Shown one piece after another: positions 54,803 to 63,092 of a stretch of 64,000 nucleotides of DNA. Made by a program: the position numbers and the translations under genes. The DNA lies in NCBI RefSeq assembly GCF_010894435.1, contig NZ_JAAIXZ010000009.1, positions 229,342 through 293,341 of the forward strand, written 5' to 3'. The first letter of the stretch is position 1. The number at the start of each line of letters is the position of its first letter. This DNA is from Pyxidicoccus trucidator. GTDB taxonomy: Bacteria > Myxococcota > Myxococcia > Myxococcales > Myxococcaceae. The notes under the pieces were generated by a model. It was given only the letters and a program-made list of their open reading frames with translations. It did no database searches and had not been told where the DNA came from.

Positions 54803-54819
54803 GCTGCTGAGCCGGGCCG

Positions 54820-55398
54820 CTACGCGCGCACCAGCACGGCGGGCAGGAGCGGCACCTTGAGGAACTCCACGCGCGTGGGGCGCACGGGCACCTCCGGCCA
54901 GCCGGGCTGCGCCAGCGCCGCCAGCAGCTCCGTCACCGGGTACTGGAAGGACTCGAAGTGGCTCGGCCCGGACATGGGCTCCAGGCCCCAGGCGAGCGCG
55001 ATGCGCAGCCGCTCACAGCGGGCCAGGTCCGCCATGTACGCGGGCAGCGTGCCGCGAGGGGCCGCCTCCAGGTAGCGGCAGAAGGCGATGGCCTCCTCGC
55101 GGTTGAGCAGCTCCGGGAGCGCGTCCTGGAGGAAGTCCTTCAGCACCGGCAACAGGCCGGGCCTCACCGCGGGGTCCGCCCACGGCAGGTGCTCGTGCAC
55201 GCGAGACAGGCGGTGGCCGTCCAGCATCCGCCCCGCCCGCTCCACCACGTTGGCGTCCGCGCCCGCCAGGCCCTCGCGCTCACGCGGGGTCAGCGCGTAA
55301 GGCGCCATGGCCGCGTGCGCGTCCTGCAGCCAGGCCTGGCGAAAGCGCGCGTCCACATGCAGCCGCGCCAGCACCTCCAGCGTCTCCGGGTAGCCCAT
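54820..55398 (-). CDS. probable MNIO partner protein
   Basis: The 192-residue protein is the last gene of the operon, 12 bases after the MNIO gene. Its N-terminus (LARLHVDARFRQAWLQDA, APYALTPREREGLAG) resembles small LigA/Nif11-like helical domains. The centre and C-terminus are not recognised. MNIO enzymes usually need a cognate partner encoded next to them (MbnC, TglI, HvfC types) for precursor binding. By position this protein should fill that role, though clear similarity to those families cannot be shown by eye. Confidence 0.65.
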   Translation of the reverse strand: MGYPETLEVLARLHVDARFRQAWLQDAHAAMAPYALTPREREGLAGADANVVERAGRMLDGHRLSRVHEHLPWADPAVRPGLLPVLKDFLQDALPELLNREEAIAFCRYLEAAPRGTLPAYMADLARCERLRIALAWGLEPMSGPSHFESFQYPVTELLAALAQPGWPEVPVRPTRVEFLKVPLLPAVLVRA

Positions 55399-55410
55399 GA
55401 TGTCTTCTCC

Positions 55411-56244
55411 TCAGGCCGCGCTCGCCCCGCAGCGCTTGAGGATGGCGCGGGCACGGGCCAGCTCCTCCACCAGCCGCGAGAACGGCGGGAAGCCGCTGTC
55501 CATCTCGAAGTTCACTCCACGCACCGGGCAGCGCGGCGCCACGTACTCCAGCAGCCGCCACACCTCGTCCGGAGAGACGGACGAGTGGCTGTCCACGTAC
55601 ACGCCCTCCATCGTCACCCCACCCGCCAGGTGGATCTGCACCACCCTGTCCAGCGGGAGCCGGTCCACGAAGTGGTACGGGTCGAACTTGTGGTTCACCG
55701 CGTTGGCGTAGACGTTGTGCAAATCCAGCAGCAGCCCGCAGTCCGACTCCTTCACCACGCGGGTGAGGAAGTCGGCCTCGTCCAGCGTGCTGAGCGGCGT
55801 GTCGAACAGCCAGGCGATGTTCTCGATGACGAAGGGCATGCCCAGGTCCGCCTGCACGCGGCGGATGTTGCGCACGCACGTCTCCAGCGCCTCCTCCGTG
55901 AAGGGCACCGGCGTGAGCGAGCGCACCGGCAGCTCGCCCGCGCGGGTGAAGCACAAGTGGTCCGAGTGCCACGCCGCCCGGGTGAGGCCCAGGAAGCGCT
56001 TCAGGTCCTCGCGGTAGCCCGGCCCGTCCACGCCGTCCGAGCCCACCGACAGCTCCAGGCCGTGGCCGGCCAGCGGGAAGCGCTTCGCCAGCACCTCCAG
56101 CCGCCGCACCGCGTCCTCCGTCAGCGGGAGGAAGTGCTCGGGCATCACCTCCAGCCAGTCCACACCCGGGTTGCCCCGGGCGAGGTTGGGCTGGAAGTCC
56201 CAGCGATAGCTGAGCCCCACTCCGAGGAACGGAATCGCCGCCAC
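55411..56244 (-). CDS. DUF692-family multinuclear non-haem iron oxidase (MNIO), MbnB/TglH-like
   Basis: The 277-residue protein has the complete DUF692 signature: LEVMPEHF (E32, E36), AGHGLELSVG (H61), WHSDHLCF (H93, H96), VIENIAW (E141, N142), LLLDLHNVYAN (D174, N177), VQIHLAGG (H205), VYVDSHSSV (D218, H220) and VNFEMDSGFP (E247). These fit the two- or three-iron active site of MbnB, TglH and related enzymes, which oxidatively rearrange cysteine residues of ribosomal peptides. The natural substrates here are the seven KCSCGG peptides encoded upstream in the same operon. Confidence 0.88.
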   Translation of the reverse strand: MAAIPFLGVGLSYRWDFQPNLARGNPGVDWLEVMPEHFLPLTEDAVRRLEVLAKRFPLAGHGLELSVGSDGVDGPGYREDLKRFLGLTRAAWHSDHLCFTRAGELPVRSLTPVPFTEEALETCVRNIRRVQADLGMPFVIENIAWLFDTPLSTLDEADFLTRVVKESDCGLLLDLHNVYANAVNHKFDPYHFVDRLPLDRVVQIHLAGGVTMEGVYVDSHSSVSPDEVWRLLEYVAPRCPVRGVNFEMDSGFPPFSRLVEELARARAILKRCGASAA

Positions 56245-56254
56245 GGCCAGCCTC

Positions 56255-57100
56255 CTACTTCTTCCTGCGCGCCATCACCTGGAAGTGCTGCCCCTGCAGC
56301 GCGAAGCCCTCATGCGCGAACTTCTCCTGCATCGCGATGATTTCGTCGCGCGCCGCCCACACGTCGAAGTCCGGGCCGCGCTCGGCCTGCATCGCCTCGA
56401 GCATCTCGAAGTACATGACGGGCTTGCCGAAGATCTCCTCCACGTCGGCGCCGGCGGCCTTCACGCCGTCGTGCAGCTCCTTCAGCGTAAAGAGGTGCAC
56501 CGGCAGCCCGTACGGGCACTTGCCGCGCCCGGTCATCAGCATCTTCAGGGCCTCGGCCTTCTTGCCGTGCTTCAGCTCGAACATGAAGTGCTCGTTCAGG
56601 TTGTCCACGCCCATGATGACCGGCCCGCCCGGCTTCACCACGCGCACCAGCTCGCTCATGGCCTTGGGGTACTGGTCCAGGCAGTAGGACACCGGGTCGC
56701 CCTCGCTGAACACCAGGTCGAACGAGGCGTCCTCGAAGCGCAGGTCCGCCACCGTGCCCTCGACGAAGGTGGCCCGCTCCAGCAGCCCCTTCGAGGAGAG
56801 GTGCGCCTTCGCCGAGTCCAGCATGCCCGCGGAGATGTCCAGCACGGTGACGTGGTGGCCGGCCTCCGCGAAGCGCGCGCTGAACTTGCCGCCACCGCCG
56901 CCAGCGTCCAGCACGCGCCAGGACGTGCCGGCCGGAGGCAGCACCTTCTGGACGGCCGCCCAGGTGAGGTGGTCGTAGACCACCCAGAACAGCTTGTGCG
57001 CCGCCTTGGTGTAGTTGCTGTTGTTGTACGTCGACGACACCTGGTCGTAGCGGCTGGAGATGTCCTGCGGCTGGGGAGGCGTGGGGGTGGTGGCGCTCAT
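56255..57100 (-). CDS. SAM-dependent methyltransferase
   Basis: The 281-residue class I methyltransferase has motif I VLDAGGGGGKFS, motif II HVTVLDISAGML, and SFDLVFSEGDPVSYC. The N-terminus (SSRYDQVSSTYNNSNYTKAA) is polar and lacks a signal. It lies 10 bases before the MNIO gene and 21 bases after the DUF5916 gene, so it is part of the operon and probably methylates the peptide product or an intermediate. Confidence 0.82.
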   Translation of the reverse strand: MSATTPTPPQPQDISSRYDQVSSTYNNSNYTKAAHKLFWVVYDHLTWAAVQKVLPPAGTSWRVLDAGGGGGKFSARFAEAGHHVTVLDISAGMLDSAKAHLSSKGLLERATFVEGTVADLRFEDASFDLVFSEGDPVSYCLDQYPKAMSELVRVVKPGGPVIMGVDNLNEHFMFELKHGKKAEALKMLMTGRGKCPYGLPVHLFTLKELHDGVKAAGADVEEIFGKPVMYFEMLEAMQAERGPDFDVWAARDEIIAMQEKFAHEGFALQGQHFQVMARRKK

Positions 57101-57121
57101 GACGGGTTCACTCCGGGCACA

Positions 57122-59242
57122 TCAATACGTGAAGGAGATCTTCGAGAGGATACGGCGCTCCTGCGAGCCGTTGAAGGGCTGGTCCGAGTAGACCAGGAAG
57201 AGGTCGCTCCACGGCCGGTAGTGCCAGCCGAAGACGGCGTCCAGCAGCGTGCCCTTCACGTTGCTGTAGTCGGCCAGCTCGGAGACGGCGCCCTGCTGGA
57301 AGGTGATGCGGGTGTAGAGGTTCGGGTTGAACTGGTAGCGCAGCTGCGCGTAGCCGCTGTACGAGTGGCCCGTACCGGACGTGCCATACAGCTCGCTGTG
57401 CGTCGGCACGTCCTCGCTCTCCGTGTAGAAGGCGCTCAGCCTGGCCTGGAGCCGGTTGCCCAGCTTGTAGTTGAGGGCGGCGTTGATGCCGCGCGTCGGC
57501 CCCCCCAGGAAGCGGCCGGTGAAGGCCGTCAGCGTCAGGCTCTGCCAGTCGTTGGGGAAGAGGATGAAGCCACCCGTGGCCACCCGGTCCTTGAAGCCCT
57601 CGTTGTTGTCGTAGACGTAGTCCGCGTAGAGGGCGAAGTTGTGGTGCAGGTAGGGCGTCACGTTGACGCGCTGGCGCAGGCGGGTGCGCACCTTCTCGTG
57701 GTTGCGCCGCCAGAGGGTGTCCCAGGTGAGGTTCACCTGCGGCAGGAAGCGCAGCCCGGGGAACGGCGTCAGGTACAGGTGCGTGTTCCAGCCCTGCTTG
57801 TCGAGCACCGGCGTGTAGCCCAGGGGGTTGGCGTACCGCTCGCCGATGTCCTCCAGGTGGACCCAGAACTCGGAGTTGGTGTCGAAGCGGTGGATGGCCA
57901 GCTTGTACGCCTCGGAGTTCTTCGAGCCCGCCGCGTCGCTCCAGCTCTTGAGCGCCTGGGCCTGGATGAAGACCTCTTCCCAGATGTGGATGTTGGCGTC
58001 GAGGCCGGCGGTGCGGAACCAGCCGTACTTGTCGCCGTAGCGGCTGACGCCGATGAGGTTGATGGCGGAGCGCTTGCCGATGTCGTGCTGCAGGCGAAGG
58101 ACGCCGGAGTTGAGGTTCTCCTTGATGGTGGTGCCGTCCCCCGGGTCGTCCTCGTGCTGCACGTCGAGGAGGGCGAAGCCCAGGCCGCCGACCTTACCGG
58201 TCAGCTGCCCGCCGCCCCAGATGCGGTCATGCGGCTTCATGGCGATGCGGCGGGAGGTGAAGATCTTGATGGGCGCCAGGAAGAGGTGCTCGGACTCCAC
58301 GAAGAAGGGACGGCGCTCGGGAAGCAGCGGCTCATCGGTGTCCAGCAGCAGCCGGTCCTGGTCCGCCTCCACGTCTGAGAAGTCCGGGTTGACGGTCAGC
58401 TTCAGGGCCGCCCAGGGGGTCGGGTCGATGCGGGCGTCAAGGCCCGCGTTGGGCCGGAGCATCTTCCGACTCTCGGTGGTCTTCAGCGCGAAGTCGGTGG
58501 CGACGTACGGGGTGACGCTCCAGCTGCGGCGCCCCTGGATGTTCTTGAGGCCCTCCAGGTGCGGGAAGCGGCTCACCTTGGCGCTGTTGACGCCGTCCGG
58601 CGTCCAGTTGCTCCACTCCTGGGTGCGGGCCTGCTCGCGGTCCAGCATCAGGCCGAACGTCACCTCCTCGCCCTCCGGGAACTGGAAGTTGGCGAAGGGG
58701 ATGCGCATCTCGGAGTACCACCCGGTGTCGGTGACGGAGCCCATGGTCTCCCACTCACCCACCCAGGACGTGGTGAAGGCCTCGCCGTCCGCGACGATGC
58801 GGCCGTCGGTGCGCACGCCCAGCGGATTGGTCCAGAAGTAGTAGGCGTTCCGGTGGTCCTTGAACGTGTCCAGCATCACCGTGACGTTGTCCTCCTGGTG
58901 GAGGAAGGAGTCGTTCTGGACGCTGTAGGCCGTGATCTTCGACGGGTCCTTGTCGAGGCAGTGGAAGAGCACGTACAGGTTGTGCTTGTCGTAGAGGATG
59001 CGGACCTTGGTGTCGTCAGGCGCCGGCTTGCCGTAGTTGATGCGCGTGAGGTACCAGCCAGAGACCTCCGTCGCCGTCTGCCACACGGCCTCATCCGGCT
59101 TGCCATCGATGGTGATGGGCTCGGCGGTGAAGGTGGCCTTGTAGTTGTAGTGCTGCTTGTCGGGGGGTGAATCGGCAAAGGCCAGAGCGGGCAGACACGC
59201 GACGAACAGCGCGGCGCCCCAGGCACAGGTAGACGGTTTCAT
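57122..59242 (-). CDS. DUF5916 outer-membrane-type protein with CBM9-like domain
   Basis: Its ATG overlaps the MFS stop (59239-59242). The 706-residue protein has a signal peptide (CAWGAALFVACLPALAFA). A carbohydrate-binding family 9-like N-terminal domain follows (ITIDGKPDEAVW, VRILYDKHNLYVLFHCLD). A long DUF5916 region has RPFFVESEHLF and many alternating beta strands, and the chain ends KISFTY with a terminal aromatic residue typical of barrels. In this operon it could be the outer-membrane exit or receptor for the peptide product. Confidence 0.82.
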   Translation of the reverse strand: MKPSTCAWGAALFVACLPALAFADSPPDKQHYNYKATFTAEPITIDGKPDEAVWQTATEVSGWYLTRINYGKPAPDDTKVRILYDKHNLYVLFHCLDKDPSKITAYSVQNDSFLHQEDNVTVMLDTFKDHRNAYYFWTNPLGVRTDGRIVADGEAFTTSWVGEWETMGSVTDTGWYSEMRIPFANFQFPEGEEVTFGLMLDREQARTQEWSNWTPDGVNSAKVSRFPHLEGLKNIQGRRSWSVTPYVATDFALKTTESRKMLRPNAGLDARIDPTPWAALKLTVNPDFSDVEADQDRLLLDTDEPLLPERRPFFVESEHLFLAPIKIFTSRRIAMKPHDRIWGGGQLTGKVGGLGFALLDVQHEDDPGDGTTIKENLNSGVLRLQHDIGKRSAINLIGVSRYGDKYGWFRTAGLDANIHIWEEVFIQAQALKSWSDAAGSKNSEAYKLAIHRFDTNSEFWVHLEDIGERYANPLGYTPVLDKQGWNTHLYLTPFPGLRFLPQVNLTWDTLWRRNHEKVRTRLRQRVNVTPYLHHNFALYADYVYDNNEGFKDRVATGGFILFPNDWQSLTLTAFTGRFLGGPTRGINAALNYKLGNRLQARLSAFYTESEDVPTHSELYGTSGTGHSYSGYAQLRYQFNPNLYTRITFQQGAVSELADYSNVKGTLLDAVFGWHYRPWSDLFLVYSDQPFNGSQERRILSKISFTY

Positions 59243-60537
59243 CCGGGCTCCTGGGATGGGGTGAGGACGGGGGTGTGGGCGACAGGTGCCGGTGCGCTGC
59301 GCTCCGGAGCCCAGGCCATGGCGACCAGGGACAGGAGCAGCGCACCGGAGGACAGCAGGAAGGCACTGGAGAGCCCGGCATGCCGGGCGACGAAGCCATA
59401 GCTGAGGGGCGCGAGGACCTGGGCAAGCGCCGCGCACGAGCCGAGCGCGCCGAGGAAGCGGCCACGCTCCGAAGTCGGAGCCACCTCCACCACCACCGCC
59501 TGGGCGGCGGGCCGGTGGAGGCCGTCCGGCACGGCGAGCAGCGCCCAGGCCACCACCATGACGATGAGGCCGTACGGCGCGGGCAGCCAGCCGGCCAGCC
59601 CGAGCACGGCGCTCATGAGCACCATGCCCGCCAGGCCCGCGAGGATGAGGCCGCTGCGCCGGGGCAGCCCGTCCGACAGGCGCCCGCCAAAGGGCTGCGC
59701 GAAGGCGTAGACGAGCCAGGAGACGGCGACCAGCGGCCCCACCAGCTCGGCGGGCGCGCCCAGTTGCATCGCGTAGAGCGGGATGTAGATGGGGAAGAGG
59801 TTCAGGGCGAAGGCGAAGAAGAACTGCCAGACGAAGAGGCCGGCCATGCGCGGCGTATCGCGCACGTAGTCGAGCGGGGCGCGCAGCGACTCCAGCGCCA
59901 GCCGCAGGTGGCTGCCCTTCGGCTCCGCCTTCGGTGCCTCGCGCCTGGGCTCCTCCAGCTTCAGGAGCAGCAGGCTGCTGACGAGGAAGAGCGCGCCGGC
60001 GAGGAAGAAGGTGTGCTGCGTGCCCAGCCAGCGGATGACGGCGGCGGAGGCCGCCAGCGCCGCGACGAAGGTGAGGCTGCTGGTGGCGTCCAGGAGGGAG
60101 AAGATGGTGGCGCGCTTCTTCGACGGCGCGAAGTCCGCCACCAGCGCGCCATTCACCGGCTGCGCGGTGCGCGCCAGCAGCAGCTTGAGCGACAGCGCCG
60201 CGGCCAGCGGCAGCGGGTGCGAGAAGAGCGCCATCAGCGGCACCAGCAGCGACGTGGCCAGCGACAGGCTCACCACGAAGGCCTTGCGGCTGTAGCGGTC
60301 CGACAGCGCCCCCATCACCGGCTGCAGGAAGATGGGCACCAGCGAGCCGGCCGTGTACACCAGCCCGATGCCCTGCAGATCCAACCCGCGCGACTGGAGG
60401 TACAGCGGCATCACCGGGTTGAGCAGCCCTCCGGCCACCGTGCCCACCAGGCCGGACACGAGCAGCACCCGCAGGTTGCCCAGCCCCTGCGTCAGCTCGT
60501 ACATCTCGCGCACCGCGCGAACGCCCCGGGCAATCAT
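59239..60537 (-). CDS. MFS transporter
   Basis: The ATG at 60537 overlaps the stop of the S16-like gene (ATGA). The 432-residue protein has 12 hydrophobic segments and the MFS motif GALSDRYSRK between helices 2 and 3, with a related GGRLSDGLPRRS in the second half. It sits in the inner membrane. Within this operon it is the likely exporter of the mature peptide; a role as importer cannot be excluded. Confidence 0.85.
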   Translation of the reverse strand: MIARGVRAVREMYELTQGLGNLRVLLVSGLVGTVAGGLLNPVMPLYLQSRGLDLQGIGLVYTAGSLVPIFLQPVMGALSDRYSRKAFVVSLSLATSLLVPLMALFSHPLPLAAALSLKLLLARTAQPVNGALVADFAPSKKRATIFSLLDATSSLTFVAALAASAAVIRWLGTQHTFFLAGALFLVSSLLLLKLEEPRREAPKAEPKGSHLRLALESLRAPLDYVRDTPRMAGLFVWQFFFAFALNLFPIYIPLYAMQLGAPAELVGPLVAVSWLVYAFAQPFGGRLSDGLPRRSGLILAGLAGMVLMSAVLGLAGWLPAPYGLIVMVVAWALLAVPDGLHRPAAQAVVVEVAPTSERGRFLGALGSCAALAQVLAPLSYGFVARHAGLSSAFLLSSGALLLSLVAMAWAPERSAPAPVAHTPVLTPSQEPG

Positions 60538-61169
60538 GCCGCCACCCCGCCCGGAATCGCCGCGCCCGCCGCGGCAGCGGCCTGACGCAGCGGCAGCGCG
60601 CCCAGCACGGACTCGGCACCCTCGGTGAGGGTGGCGACGGGGCGCACGTCGAGGGAGGCGAGGGGCGCGGCGTCCCACTGGCTGCCGGCGGGCACCCACA
60701 CCGGCACGCGCCCGGCGGCCGCGTGGACCTGGCGCACGTAGCCGTCCGCGACGGCCAGCTTGCCCTGGAGCTTCTCGAGCGGCGCGGACACCAGCGCCTC
60801 GCCCGCGTCCAGCGCCACGCCCGTGGCCAGGAAGGGGGCGGGCAGCTCGCGCCCGGCCAGCAGCGCCACCCACGCGACGAACAGCGGCAGGGACGCGCTG
60901 CGCCCGTCCAGCAGCACGCGCCGGCCTCGCACGGAGACGAACAGGTCCGTCTCGTCCCAGGGCAGCGCGTAGCGCCCGCGGCCCACGGCCGCCAGGTGGC
61001 GCAGGTGCTGCTGCCAGGCCGGCGCGTAGCCGGTGTCACGGGACAGGTCCACCCAGAGGCGGCCTTCGCCCGGGCGTACCGCCACGTCGACGGACACGGC
61101 CCGGAACAGCGGCGCGCCATGCAGGTCGGCCTGGGTGAGCAGCAGGAGTGGCGTGGACGAGGAGCTCAA
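60534..61169 (-). CDS. stand-alone Lon (S16)-like peptidase domain, candidate leader peptidase
   Basis: The frame has no ATG; TTG at 61169 is the most likely start, giving 211 residues, but its ribosome site is poor. Residues 75-141 follow the Lon catalytic pattern: DLFVSV, then LLDGRSASLPL (S91 aligned with the Lon nucleophile in GPSAG), LAGRELPAPFLATGVAL, and APLEKLQGKLAVA (K133 or K137 as the general base). There is no ATPase domain. Located between the precursor array and the exporter, it may cut the constant N-terminus of the peptides. The alignment is by eye. Confidence 0.62.
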   Translation of the reverse strand: MSSSSTPLLLLTQADLHGAPLFRAVSVDVAVRPGEGRLWVDLSRDTGYAPAWQQHLRHLAAVGRGRYALPWDETDLFVSVRGRRVLLDGRSASLPLFVAWVALLAGRELPAPFLATGVALDAGEALVSAPLEKLQGKLAVADGYVRQVHAAAGRVPVWVPAGSQWDAAPLASLDVRPVATLTEGAESVLGALPLRQAAAAAGAAIPGGVAA

Positions 61170-61205
61170 GGGAAGGGAGCAGCGAGGTGAAGAGGGAGGA
61201 AAACA

Positions 61206-61245
61206 CGGGCGGGACTCGGCCCCCGAAGGAGCCGCTTCCCGCCCG
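61206..61245 (-). terminator. hairpin after last precursor gene
   Basis: CGGGCGGGA (61206-61214) pairs with TCCCGCCCG (61237-61245), with inner CGGC (61217-61220) and GCCG (61231-61234). It lies between precursor A and the S16-like gene. It could terminate part of the transcripts or stabilise the precursor mRNA. Confidence 0.55.
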
Positions 61246-61255
61246 CGAGCTTCAA

Positions 61256-61354
61256 CTACTCGGCGACGCGAACCTGCGCGGCGACCATGGTGCCACCGCA
61301 GGAGCACTTGTCGGACGAAGCGGAAACGCGAACGATCTGGGCCTTGACGTACAT
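61256..61354 (-). CDS. RiPP precursor-like peptide A (32 residues)
   Basis: The peptide has the shared 23-residue part (MYVKAQIVRV, then SASSDKCSCGGTM) and a tail VAAQVRVAE. Ser replaces Ala at position 11, the only copy with this change. AAAGAGG stands 6 bases upstream. It is the last unit of the array and is nearest the S16-like gene. Confidence 0.8.
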   Translation of the reverse strand: MYVKAQIVRVSASSDKCSCGGTMVAAQVRVAE

Positions 61355-61474
61355 GGTGAACCTCTTTCGGGGTGCTGGGTTGAGCCCATCCACGGTCCGG
61401 CGAGCCGGCCCCCGGACGGGGTGCTGCGCAACGGCGAGGGCGGAAGGAAGACCTCCCGCCCCTGCCGGTGTGGA

Positions 61475-61570
61475 CTACTCCGCGATGCGGACCTGCGCGG
61501 TCATGGTGCCGCCGCAGGAGCACTTGTCGGACGAAGCGGCAACGCGGACGATCTGGGCCTTGACGTACAT
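61475..61570 (-). CDS. RiPP precursor-like peptide B (31 residues)
   Basis: Shared N-terminal part ending KCSCGGTM, with tail TAQVRIAE. The AAAGAGG ribosome site is 6 bases upstream. The tail is close to that of peptide A. Confidence 0.8.
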   Translation of the reverse strand: MYVKAQIVRVAASSDKCSCGGTMTAQVRIAE

Positions 61571-61652
61571 GGTGAACCTCTTTCGGGGTGTTGGGGTTGA
61601 GCCCAACCGCGGCCCGGCGAACCGGACCGCGGGCGGGGTGCTGCACAACGGT

Positions 61653-61683
61653 GCGGGTGGAGAGAGAGACCCTCACCACCCGC
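61653..61683 (-). terminator. hairpin between precursors C and B
   Basis: GCGGGTGG (61653-61660) pairs with CCACCCGC (61676-61683), 11 bases after the stop of peptide C in the direction of transcription. A smaller imperfect GC hairpin lies after peptide B at 61438-61460. Confidence 0.4.
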
Positions 61684-61694
61684 GCCGAGGAGGA

Positions 61695-61790
61695 CTACTC
61701 CGCGATGGTCAGGTTCGCGGACATGGTGCCGCCGCAGGAGCACTTGTCGGACGAAGCGGCAACGCGGACGATCTGGGCCTTGACGTACAT
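61695..61790 (-). CDS. RiPP precursor-like peptide C (31 residues)
   Basis: Shared N-terminal part ending KCSCGGTM, with tail SANLTIAE. The leader differs slightly (GGTCCACAC before ATG) but keeps AAAGAGG. Confidence 0.8.
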   Translation of the reverse strand: MYVKAQIVRVAASSDKCSCGGTMSANLTIAE

Positions 61791-61855
61791 GTGTGGACCT
61801 CTTTCGGTGCTGCGGGTTGTGGGCGTGAGCCCGGATGAACTACGGAACACAACGG

Positions 61856-61954
61856 CTACTGGATGACCGCCGCGTCGGCGAGGGTCATGGTGCCGCCGCA
61901 GGAGCACTTGTCGGACGAAGCGGCGACGCGAACGATCTGGGCCTTGACGTACAT
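61856..61954 (-). CDS. RiPP precursor-like peptide D (32 residues)
   Basis: Shared N-terminal part ending KCSCGGTM, with tail TLADAAVIQ. The leader has AAAAGAGATCCCC. The tail type (ending VIQ) is shared with E and F, whereas A, B, C and G end in AE. Confidence 0.8.
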   Translation of the reverse strand: MYVKAQIVRVAASSDKCSCGGTMTLADAAVIQ

Positions 61955-62002
61955 GGGGATCTCTTTTCGGTGATGTGAGTGGTTGGGGGGCGTGAGCCCG
62001 GA

Positions 62003-62101
62003 CTACTGGATGACTTCGGCGTTGTTCAGGGTCATGGTGCCGCCGCAGGAGCACTTGTCGGACGACGCGGCGACGCGAACGATCTGGGCCTTGACGTACA
62101 T
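62003..62101 (-). CDS. RiPP precursor-like peptide E (32 residues)
   Basis: Shared N-terminal part ending KCSCGGTM, with tail TLNNAEVIQ. AAAGAGG lies upstream. A 301-base stretch separates it from F; that stretch holds a 14-bp hairpin near F and otherwise no gene I can support. Confidence 0.8.
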   Translation of the reverse strand: MYVKAQIVRVAASSDKCSCGGTMTLNNAEVIQ

Positions 62102-62357
62102 GGTGGACCTCTTTCGGTGTTGGGGTTGAACCCGGCCTCGTTCCGGCGAACCGGCTCGCAGCCGAGGCGCTACGAGCGACACGGGCCTGAAGAAGACTGA
62201 TTGCCCGCGCCGCCACTACTACCCGAGCCCCCTGACACGCGTTCTGGGACACCGCGGGTCGCGCGCTCATGAGCAGGCACGACGATAGATACACGCGTTG
62301 CAGCCACGTCCATCGTGGTCCTCTTGGGGGTGTGGGTTTGAAGAGCGCCGCAAACGA

Positions 62358-62389
62358 GAAGGGCGGGGAGGTTTTCCTCCCCGCCCTTC
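62358..62389 (-). terminator. strong hairpin dividing the precursor array
   Basis: GAAGGGCGGGGAGG (62358-62371) pairs perfectly with CCTCCCCGCCCTTC (62376-62389) around a TTTT/AAAA loop. It lies 12 bases after the stop of peptide F on the minus strand, so it could separate precursors G-F from E-A. No long U-tract follows. Confidence 0.6.
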
Positions 62390-62401
62390 CTTACTTCCCA
62401 A

Positions 62402-62494
62402 CTACTGGATGACCTCGCGCACCGTCATCGTGCCACCACAGGAACACTTGTCGGAGGAAGCGGCAACGCGGACGATCTCAGCCTTGACGTACAT
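62402..62494 (-). CDS. RiPP precursor-like peptide F (30 residues)
   Basis: The most diverged copy at DNA level, with Glu for Gln at position 6. The KCSCGGTM core is intact and the tail is TVREVIQ. The leader is CTGAGAGGTACATC before ATG. Conservation of the cysteines despite silent changes suggests selection on the core. Confidence 0.8.
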   Translation of the reverse strand: MYVKAEIVRVAASSDKCSCGGTMTVREVIQ

Positions 62495-62533
62495 GATGTA
62501 CCTCTCAGGTGTTGGGGTGTTGGGAGCTTCGAA

Positions 62534-62626
62534 CTACTCCGCGACGGTGAGGACCGTCATGGTCCCGCCGCAGGAGCACTTGTCGGAGGAAGCGGCGACG
62601 CGAACGATCTGGGCCTTGACGTACAT
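62534..62626 (-). CDS. RiPP precursor-like peptide G (30 residues)
   Basis: First unit of the array, with tail TVLTVAE after KCSCGGTM. The frame is open further upstream, but the AAAGAGG site and the match to the other copies fix the start at 62626. Confidence 0.82.
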   Translation of the reverse strand: MYVKAQIVRVAASSDKCSCGGTMTVLTVAE

Positions 62627-62652
62627 GGTGAACCTCTTTCGGTGGTGGGTTG

Positions 62653-62724
62653 GCCTGTGCTGTGAAACAATGCGTTCCGTGTCACAGGCGTTGTGTGTGT
62701 TTTTAAGAAAATGAAACACACACA
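62653..62724 (-). promoter_or_regulatory. upstream region of precursor array with two inverted repeats
   Basis: TGTGTGTGTTT (62692-62702) pairs with AAACACACACA (62714-62724), and GCCTGTG (62653-62659) pairs with CACAGGC (62683-62689). The stretch is much more AT-rich than the surroundings and sits 27-98 bases before peptide G. It is a likely promoter/operator or the 3' end of the PqqD-like transcript. Confidence 0.45.
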
Positions 62725-62813
62725 TCTGGTGGCTCTTCGGGCAAAGCGAGGCCATGGCCTGACTTGCCAGGGAAGAACCCAATGAGTTGTGCTTGCAGGA
62801 TGAGAAGGCGTTC

Positions 62814-63092
62814 TCAGGAAACGCCGGACGGCTCGCAGAGTCCGAGTTCCAGGAACTGAGCTACAGTACTCTGGACGTCTTCAACGATTTCCTGGCGGGG
62901 AGCCGTTGCGCCCAGTCCGCTGGAGAGTGCCTGCACCGCGTCCTCGAGCGTGCTGCCAGTGCGGCACAGCTCGAAGATACGGGCGGCGGTCTCGTTTACT
63001 CGGAAGACCTCTCCACCTTCGGTGTCCAGGAGGAAGAACGCGTCCTGCTGCTGCTGGACCATGACACCGGCCACTGCTCGTGGAAGGACCAA
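62814..63092 (-). CDS. PqqD-like RiPP recognition element protein
   Basis: TTG at 63092 is the start: CAGGAGAG lies 6 bases upstream. The 92-residue protein follows the PqqD/RRE pattern: DAFFLLDTEGGEVFRVNETAARIFELC, read in pieces as strand-strand-helix, then GSTLEDAVQALSSGLG and EIVEDVQSTVAQFLELGL. RREs bind leader peptides and deliver them to modifying enzymes. It is the first gene of the cluster, 187 bases upstream of peptide G, and should recognise the constant N-terminus. Confidence 0.82.
   Translation of the reverse strand: MVLPRAVAGVMVQQQQDAFFLLDTEGGEVFRVNETAARIFELCRTGSTLEDAVQALSSGLGATAPRQEIVEDVQSTVAQFLELGLCEPSGVS

Follow-up and report, generated by a model that had tools for sequence, protein, structure and literature searches.

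New peptide chemistry is emerging at a growing pace from MNIO (DUF692) enzymes, which use iron. Here we describe a set of genes around one such enzyme in the myxobacterium Pyxidicoccus trucidator. It occupies positions 54820-63092, on the minus strand, of a 64,000-nucleotide stretch of DNA that we analyzed as a whole and refer to as the window (assembly GCF_010894435.1, contig NZ_JAAIXZ010000009.1, positions 229,342 to 293,341). The locus is a discrete gene cluster that probably makes ribosomally synthesized and post-translationally modified peptides (RiPPs): it contains seven short cysteine-containing precursors, the MNIO and its partner, a recognition protein, a protease-like protein, and an exporter.

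In the captophorins, bufferins, and oxazolins (BufABC, HvfABC, and FonABC), an MNIO and its partner act on cysteines beside small residues, and repeated-cassette precursors exist. The precursors have Sec signal peptides, the partners have a DUF2063-type RiPP recognition element (RRE; these partners are known as PME1), DoxX is often present, and there is no dedicated protease or exporter. In methanobactin biosynthesis (MbnABC), an MNIO with a helper modifies a short cysteine-containing precursor that has no signal peptide. For 3-thiaglutamate, or pearlin (TglHI), TglH acts on a cysteine that a LanB-like ligase adds to a scaffold peptide. The MNIOs of the chryseobasin family (ChrH/DybH) act on a motif with two cysteines and a methionine (CPACGM), S-methylation occurs, and the precursors have signal peptides or lipoprotein signals (PMC12636315). 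Finally, the biphenomycin-like pbs cluster combines an MNIO, a PME2-type partner, an MFS exporter, and a putative metalloprotease, and its precursors are modified on Phe, with ortho-Tyr cross-linked (PMC12257519).

A survey of MNIO clusters found precursors mainly as open reading frames (ORFs) that precede MNIO genes (PMC12452194). Its text is silent on Myxococc-, PqqD, MFS, and methyltransferase, and the adjamnio precursor families given in its main text include CxxC, CxxCC, and others, with no CxC or myxobacterial family. Because the precursors described here are about 30 residues long and lie four genes further upstream, searches that look mainly at the frame immediately preceding an MNIO gene would miss them. 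In the open-licence PMC literature we found nothing with "CSCGGTM," nothing on MNIO with Corallococcus, and nothing on DUF5916, although a subscription paper could exist. The locus is a variant within the MNIO-modified RiPPs, a broad class that is already known, and we assign it to no named MNIO product family. The peptide family, its predicted processing, and the Lon-type protease match no characterized pathway that we found.

The peptides and the enzymes are inherited together

We surveyed 96 Myxococcaceae genomes. The peptides are present in 22 of them, and all 22 carry an orthologue of the MNIO (74% identity or more). This orthologue is found in 23 genomes in total (~75% identity or more), and none of the 73 genomes that lack it has the peptides (Fisher p = 9e-21, with the caveat that genomes are not independent). 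The case that would have spoken against a joint pathway, peptides without the DUF692 gene, was thus not encountered. In the 23rd genome (G019), the contig begins inside the MFS gene (L011). An orthologue of the RRE was found in exactly those 22 genomes that have the peptides. A profile of the partner matched in carriers plus one relic only, and a profile of the Lon-like protein matched in carriers plus one remote hit (E = 8e-7) within a 784-residue frame elsewhere. In 19 loci that each lie on one contig, and that come from four genera, all eight components follow the same order; another four genomes have the genes on broken contigs. A profile search for the peptides across Myxococcota gave no additional carriers. 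The sole scan that reached beyond Myxococcota, for exact peptide words in contigs, found 12 loci, all in Myxococcaceae, and does not exclude remote relatives elsewhere.

The cluster is gained or lost as one. In seven congeners without it, the site is empty: the menB-like gene (63358) adjoins the left flank (54802 or about 53970). For Corallococcus and Citreicoccus, as well as a fourth genus, DNA-level alignment to the window is essentially restricted to the cluster itself (54812-63070), so its location differs there. A Corallococcus without the cluster (G029, L136 5700-6400) still has part of the partner gene, along with a 317-base remnant of the methyltransferase/MNIO junction, inside flanks that are otherwise colinear, which indicates loss as a unit; this scar and the seven empty sites together show that the set comes and goes as a whole. 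Short precursors are thereby genetically tied to an RRE, a modifying enzyme, a protease, and an exporter. The preliminary description had proposed an MNIO-based RiPP pathway from the letters of this locus alone, and co-inheritance, conserved gene order, metal ligands, and protein folds all support that proposal.

The genome of P. trucidator is 12.67 Mb and is close to those of Pyxidicoccus caerfyrddinensis and Myxococcus sp. RHSTA-1-4. In one other locus (L046 12122-12396, genome G069), the RRE gene looks frameshifted, with two tblastn pieces that lie 2 bases apart, which may reflect either sequencing error or decay.

The precursor peptides are conserved

The seven ORFs encode peptides of 30-32 residues, each with a GA-rich ribosome-binding site directly upstream. 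In 37 aligned peptides, R9, D15, C17, C19, and M23 are invariant, and all 77 stand-alone peptides share a D-x-C-[ST]-C-x3-M block. The residues after both cysteines are small (S or T after the first, G or S after the second). All 77 peptides also have [ASP]-[EQ]-[IV] at positions 5-7 and end in E (63 peptides) or Q (14 peptides). The tail after M23 has 7-13 residues, is rich in T, V, A, and I, and contains no Cys, Met, Tyr, Trp, or His; there are 60 different tails among the 77 peptides, and some are kept between species. The preliminary description took CSC to be the core of the peptides. The CxC block is invariant, but the part that varies between products is the tail.

The first 23 codons of the peptides are under purifying selection: among the seven copies in the window, the nonsynonymous difference (pN) is 0.011 versus a synonymous difference (pS) of 0.238, or pN/pS = 0.045. 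Given these values and the recurrence in 22 genomes, the seven near-identical peptides are not due to chance, and we rejected the possibility that they are chance or shadow ORFs. It might still be argued that the ORFs, which are very short and of a kind that is usually left unannotated, are untranslated, and that the cluster is decayed or is an unrelated operon. With a low pN/pS among copies, a ribosome-binding site at each, conservation across the carriers, and fusion into a single ORF in another genus (see below), we consider this extremely improbable.

An additional cysteine-containing peptide upstream of four loci (MPSSGRLKAYF...CACG) turned out to be a shadow ORF on the strand opposite the menB-like gene, which encodes an enoyl-CoA hydratase. 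In one genome (G015, L054 9727-10468), there are six identical tandem copies of a precursor gene at 128-base spacing, a recent amplification. Two Corallococcus genomes (L066, G021:C595, and L067, G026:C348) have a second group of three related peptides, an orphan set in which there are additional cysteines and the last residue is Cys (for example MYTKAEIVRVAAVVDSCTCGGGMTTTTTTCTGLVQSSDC). These lie between genes for a ZIP-type metal transporter and an SDR protein, with no MNIO on the stretch of contig that was read.

A polyprotein form predicts the cleavage site

In one genus the precursors are also known in a fused form. A single ORF of 181 residues and seven units replaces the peptide array in genome G041 (L055 3586-4131). 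Four of the joints read A-E-I, one reads P-E-I, and one reads A-A-I, and K/S/T-R-V/L comes next. The C-terminal A-E of a unit thus coincides with the start of the following unit, its N-terminal [AS]-[EQ]-I. The polyprotein, too, ends in E or Q. A single rule, cleavage after E/Q and before I/V, would give equivalent products from the array and from the polyprotein. Natural array and polyprotein forms of one precursor thus predict where it would be cut.

The fused form also bears on which part of the peptide is the product. A conserved first part followed by a variable last part is the usual layout of leader and core, and the many distinct tails, with similar ones kept between species, would fit bioactive products. 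The first 23 residues, including the CxC, would then be a leader, and any modification there would serve recognition or cleavage. However, the polyprotein repeats the conserved block with every tail, which is unnecessary for a leader, and the composition of these short tails offers an MNIO little known chemistry. It would surprise us if the tails were the products.

A stand-alone Lon-type proteolytic domain

The protein encoded just after the peptides matches no Pfam or NCBIfam family above the cut-off, and the same is true of the partner and the peptides. The preliminary description had called it Lon-like, and a structural model now backs this up. The AlphaFold2 model (pLDDT 82.5; Foldseek E = 5e-11) aligns to the proteolytic domain of E. 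coli Lon (3wu6) with a VIA Z of 19.8 and a root-mean-square deviation of 2.3 over 172 residues. Ser91 and Lys137 are invariant in 21 aligned sequences. The protein therefore has the proteolytic fold and Ser-Lys dyad of Lon (S16) peptidases, but it differs from them in that it has ~20% identity, is missed by the Lon profile, lies in a RiPP cluster, and consists of the proteolytic domain only, with no AAA+ ATPase module. Lon domains usually act together with an ATPase. Should it cleave the precursors, it would add a new type to the RiPP proteases; Lon and S16 go unmentioned in a review of those that remove leaders.

The MNIO misses the curated cut-offs, and its partner resembles TglI

The preliminary description also noted a DUF692 enzyme with all of its metal ligands. 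Beyond the strong match to PF05114, the ligands (H61, H96, E141, D174, N177, H205, D218, H220, and E247, as reported for MbnB in PMC8888699) and the base D249 (the catalytic Asp in FonB, PMC12668002) are invariant in 23 orthologues, so the protein belongs to the MNIO superfamily. It does not reach the NCBIfam cut-off for any characterized maturase: its scores versus the cut-offs are 208.6/310 for BufB, 198.7/360 for HvfB, 114.5/400 for ApyH (aminopyruvatide), 68.1/600 for ChrH, and 23.6/325 for MbnB. The earlier statement that the locus matches neither methanobactin, 3-thiaglutamate, nor bufferin clusters thus holds against curated cut-offs. In a tree, the MNIO groups with its orthologues (support 99/98), separately from bufferin/HvfB and on the TglH side; the deep branches, and with them the junction to other MNIOs, are weak.

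The suspected partner of the MNIO was borne out by its model, which is most similar to TglI (8hci_A, Z = 10.7, also 9.6), followed by NGO1945 (3dee, Z = 8.3) and, weakly, MbnC (Z = 5.8 and 4.8), above all other matches. With this TglI/NGO1945-type fold, no match to PF09836 (DUF2063), and a gap of 12 bases to the MNIO gene, it is predicted to be a type 2 partner in the terms of PMC12452194. The RRE scores below all of the NCBIfam PqqD equivalog cut-offs.

Other features also separate the cluster from the systems described above. Unlike pearlin clusters, it has no Cys-adding LanB-like ligase among its conserved components, and its precursors do not end in Cys. Unlike methanobactin, it has many precursors. 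It differs from pbs in its Lon-type domain and in having no aromatic residues in the core, and from chryseobasin in the spacing of the cysteines.

Like captophorins and bufferins, the peptides might serve to buffer copper, with the whole modified peptide staying with the cell and binding Cu(I) via thiooxazoles and Met. The 5-thiooxazoles that captophorin MNIOs produce serve in copper detoxification (PMC12668002), the residues of CxCx3M are arranged as in a soft-metal ligand, the orphan peptides adjoin a gene for a ZIP-type metal transporter, and another thiooxazole RiPP also has cassette repeats. On the other hand, the precursors, by inspection, have no Sec signal peptide and no hydrophobic stretch; there is no DUF2063 (PME1) partner and no DoxX; and the MNIO is below the BufB and HvfB cut-offs even though some other MNIOs from Myxococcaceae pass one of them. 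A dedicated protease, MFS exporter, and methyltransferase are outside the core of captophorin and bufferin operons (PMC12452194). Overall, we consider a copper-buffering system of this kind unlikely.

For the chemistry, the strongest rival has the C-terminal Glu/Gln as the target of the MNIO, in which case the CxC pair would be a plain metal-binding or disulfide-forming element. A terminal E or Q is maintained in every stand-alone peptide and in the polyprotein despite otherwise variable tails, the enzyme lies outside the cysteine-modifying BufB/HvfB clade, and known MNIOs from small clusters modify C-terminal residues (PMC12452194); ApyH acts on Asp and MovX on Asn. But the MNIO scores higher against BufB and HvfB than against ApyH, the D-x-C-x-C-x3-M block is invariant, and Cys is the last residue of all six orphan peptides. 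Also, the polyprotein holds this E within the chain, before I-K/S-R-V, where it is better explained as a cleavage-site residue than as the target of the MNIO. We regard C-terminal modification as quite unlikely.

A proposed pathway

On balance, we favor the view that the cluster makes a set of cysteine-modified peptides, in the following order. The short precursors would be translated in excess over the enzymes. The N-terminal half (YVKAQIVRV), which resembles a beta-strand, would be offered by the PqqD-like RRE and the TglI-like partner to the MNIO, which would oxidize one or both cysteines of the D-x-C-[ST]-C block; the small residues after both cysteines fit the preference of FonBC. Most likely, this oxidation would remove four electrons and leave a ring of the thiooxazole or oxazolone-thioamide type. 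The methyltransferase would then add a methyl group, perhaps on the ring sulfur. The Lon-type domain would cut after E/Q in [ASP]-[EQ]-[IV], which would remove MYxxx[EQ] and, in the fused form, separate the units. The products would be ~24-30 residues that start with I-x-R-V and end with E/Q; for example, the core IVRVAASSDKCSCGGTMTVLTVAE from such a cut has a calculated mass of 2397.17 Da if unmodified or 2389.11 with two changes of -4.03. The MFS protein would export the peptides over the inner membrane, perhaps with help from the CBM9/DUF5916 protein, a probable barrel, at the outer membrane. Members of the set would differ from one another in their tails after Met23, and the CxCx3M block would be a soft-metal ligand, for which copper is plausible given these residues. 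Methylation, cleavage after E/Q, and export are predicted from gene content and the sequence pattern; we likewise infer the modification, its site, and the function.

Several points weigh against this pathway. The MNIO could act on the invariant C-terminal E/Q instead. Of three selectivity positions described in PMC12668002, the first Arg is kept (R14), but the other two, in the cysteine pocket, differ (the second Arg is Trp15 and the Phe is Ser250). Given the placement of the MNIO outside the bufferin/HvfB clade, with weak deep support, and its PME-type-2-like partner, captophorin ring chemistry is not simply transferable. One of the six polyprotein joints lacks the E. And Lon domains usually work with an ATPase; the leader-protease review gives no precedent for a stand-alone one encoded among RiPP genes.

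More tentatively, and with considerable doubt, the cluster might represent a RiPP class of its own. A Lon-type domain free of any ATPase would then cut after Glu/Gln, in separate gene products or in a seven-unit polyprotein, to release MNIO-modified CxCx3M peptides with member-specific tails, and an unprecedented CxC modification would be the work of an MNIO clade that lies beyond the known maturase families. With its own protease, methyltransferase, and exporter, the cluster offers a complete pathway that can be tested.

Layout of the locus

We re-derived the genes from the sequence (Table 1). All of the elements of the preliminary description were recovered with the coordinates it gave, including the gaps of under 25 bases from the peptidase gene onward and the two ATGA overlaps. 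The 4-base overlaps are at the LON/MFS and MFS/CBM9 junctions, and the other gaps are 21, 10, and 12 bases. The last peptide and the Lon-like gene are separated by 86 bases that contain a GC-rich hairpin, so tight spacing begins only at the Lon-like gene. The hairpin is possibly an attenuator that sets the ratio of precursor to enzyme; a terminator-like site of consensus type overlaps it, but such sites occur at the frequency expected by chance. A scan for sigma-70 promoters gave no match, and that consensus is not informative for myxobacteria.

Table 1. Features of the cluster, in 5' to 3' order on the minus strand
Feature	Position	Strand	Evidence
Stand-alone PqqD-like RRE, 92 aa, TTG start	62814..63092	-	PF05402 PqqD, E 1.8e-12, above cut-off
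Precursor peptide 1, MYVKAQIVRVAASSDKCSCGGTMTVLTVAE	62534..62626	-	ORF; conserved in 22 genomes
Precursor peptide 2, MYVKAEIVRVAASSDKCSCGGTMTVREVIQ	62402..62494	-	ORF
Precursor peptide 3, MYVKAQIVRVAASSDKCSCGGTMTLNNAEVIQ	62003..62101	-	ORF
Precursor peptide 4, MYVKAQIVRVAASSDKCSCGGTMTLADAAVIQ	61856..61954	-	ORF
Precursor peptide 5, MYVKAQIVRVAASSDKCSCGGTMSANLTIAE	61695..61790	-	ORF
Precursor peptide 6, MYVKAQIVRVAASSDKCSCGGTMTAQVRIAE	61475..61570	-	ORF
Precursor peptide 7, MYVKAQIVRVSASSDKCSCGGTMVAAQVRVAE	61256..61354	-	ORF
GC-rich hairpin between last precursor and enzyme genes	61206..61245	-	18-nt arms, 83% complementary, 4-nt loop
Lon-type proteolytic domain without ATPase, 211 aa, Ser91 (DGRSAS) and Lys137 (LQGKL)	60534..61169	-	AlphaFold2 model
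MFS transporter, 432 aa	59239..60537	-	PF07690, E 9e-49
CBM9_1 + DUF5916 protein with signal peptide, 706 aa	57122..59242	-	PF06452, 3e-10; PF19313, 1.4e-8
Class I S-adenosylmethionine methyltransferase, 281 aa	56255..57100	-	PF13649, E 2.6e-22
MNIO (DUF692, MbnB_TglH_ChrH) oxidative maturase, 277 aa, GTG start	55411..56244	-	PF05114, E 2.3e-79
MNIO partner, PME-type-2-like, 192 aa	54820..55398	-	AlphaFold2 model, pLDDT 87

The TTG start of the Lon-like ORF was fixed from orthologues, and the signal peptide of the CBM9/DUF5916 protein was judged by direct reading of its N-terminus. ORFs of 1332 and 544 residues over the Lon/MFS region were rejected because they are in the wrong frame or start too early. 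We also rejected a role in anti-phage defence, as PADLOC gave no match.

Other MNIOs in these genomes

Another group of MNIOs (L058-L061; for example, L059 7984-9904) is 42-46% identical and is fused to a long C-terminal region that is weakly partner-like (hhalign E = 4e-4, with a probability of only 34%). Just upstream is a cysteine-rich precursor (...GSVCISCACGSGCLCG...), and there are two glycosyltransferases, one with a PqqD-like C-terminus. These loci possibly encode a further uncharacterized RiPP. The genome of P. trucidator itself has two further MNIO genes. In the tree, the one at G000:C28:106087-106887 groups with bufferin-type maturases, and the one at G000:C6:444051-444782 is very divergent.

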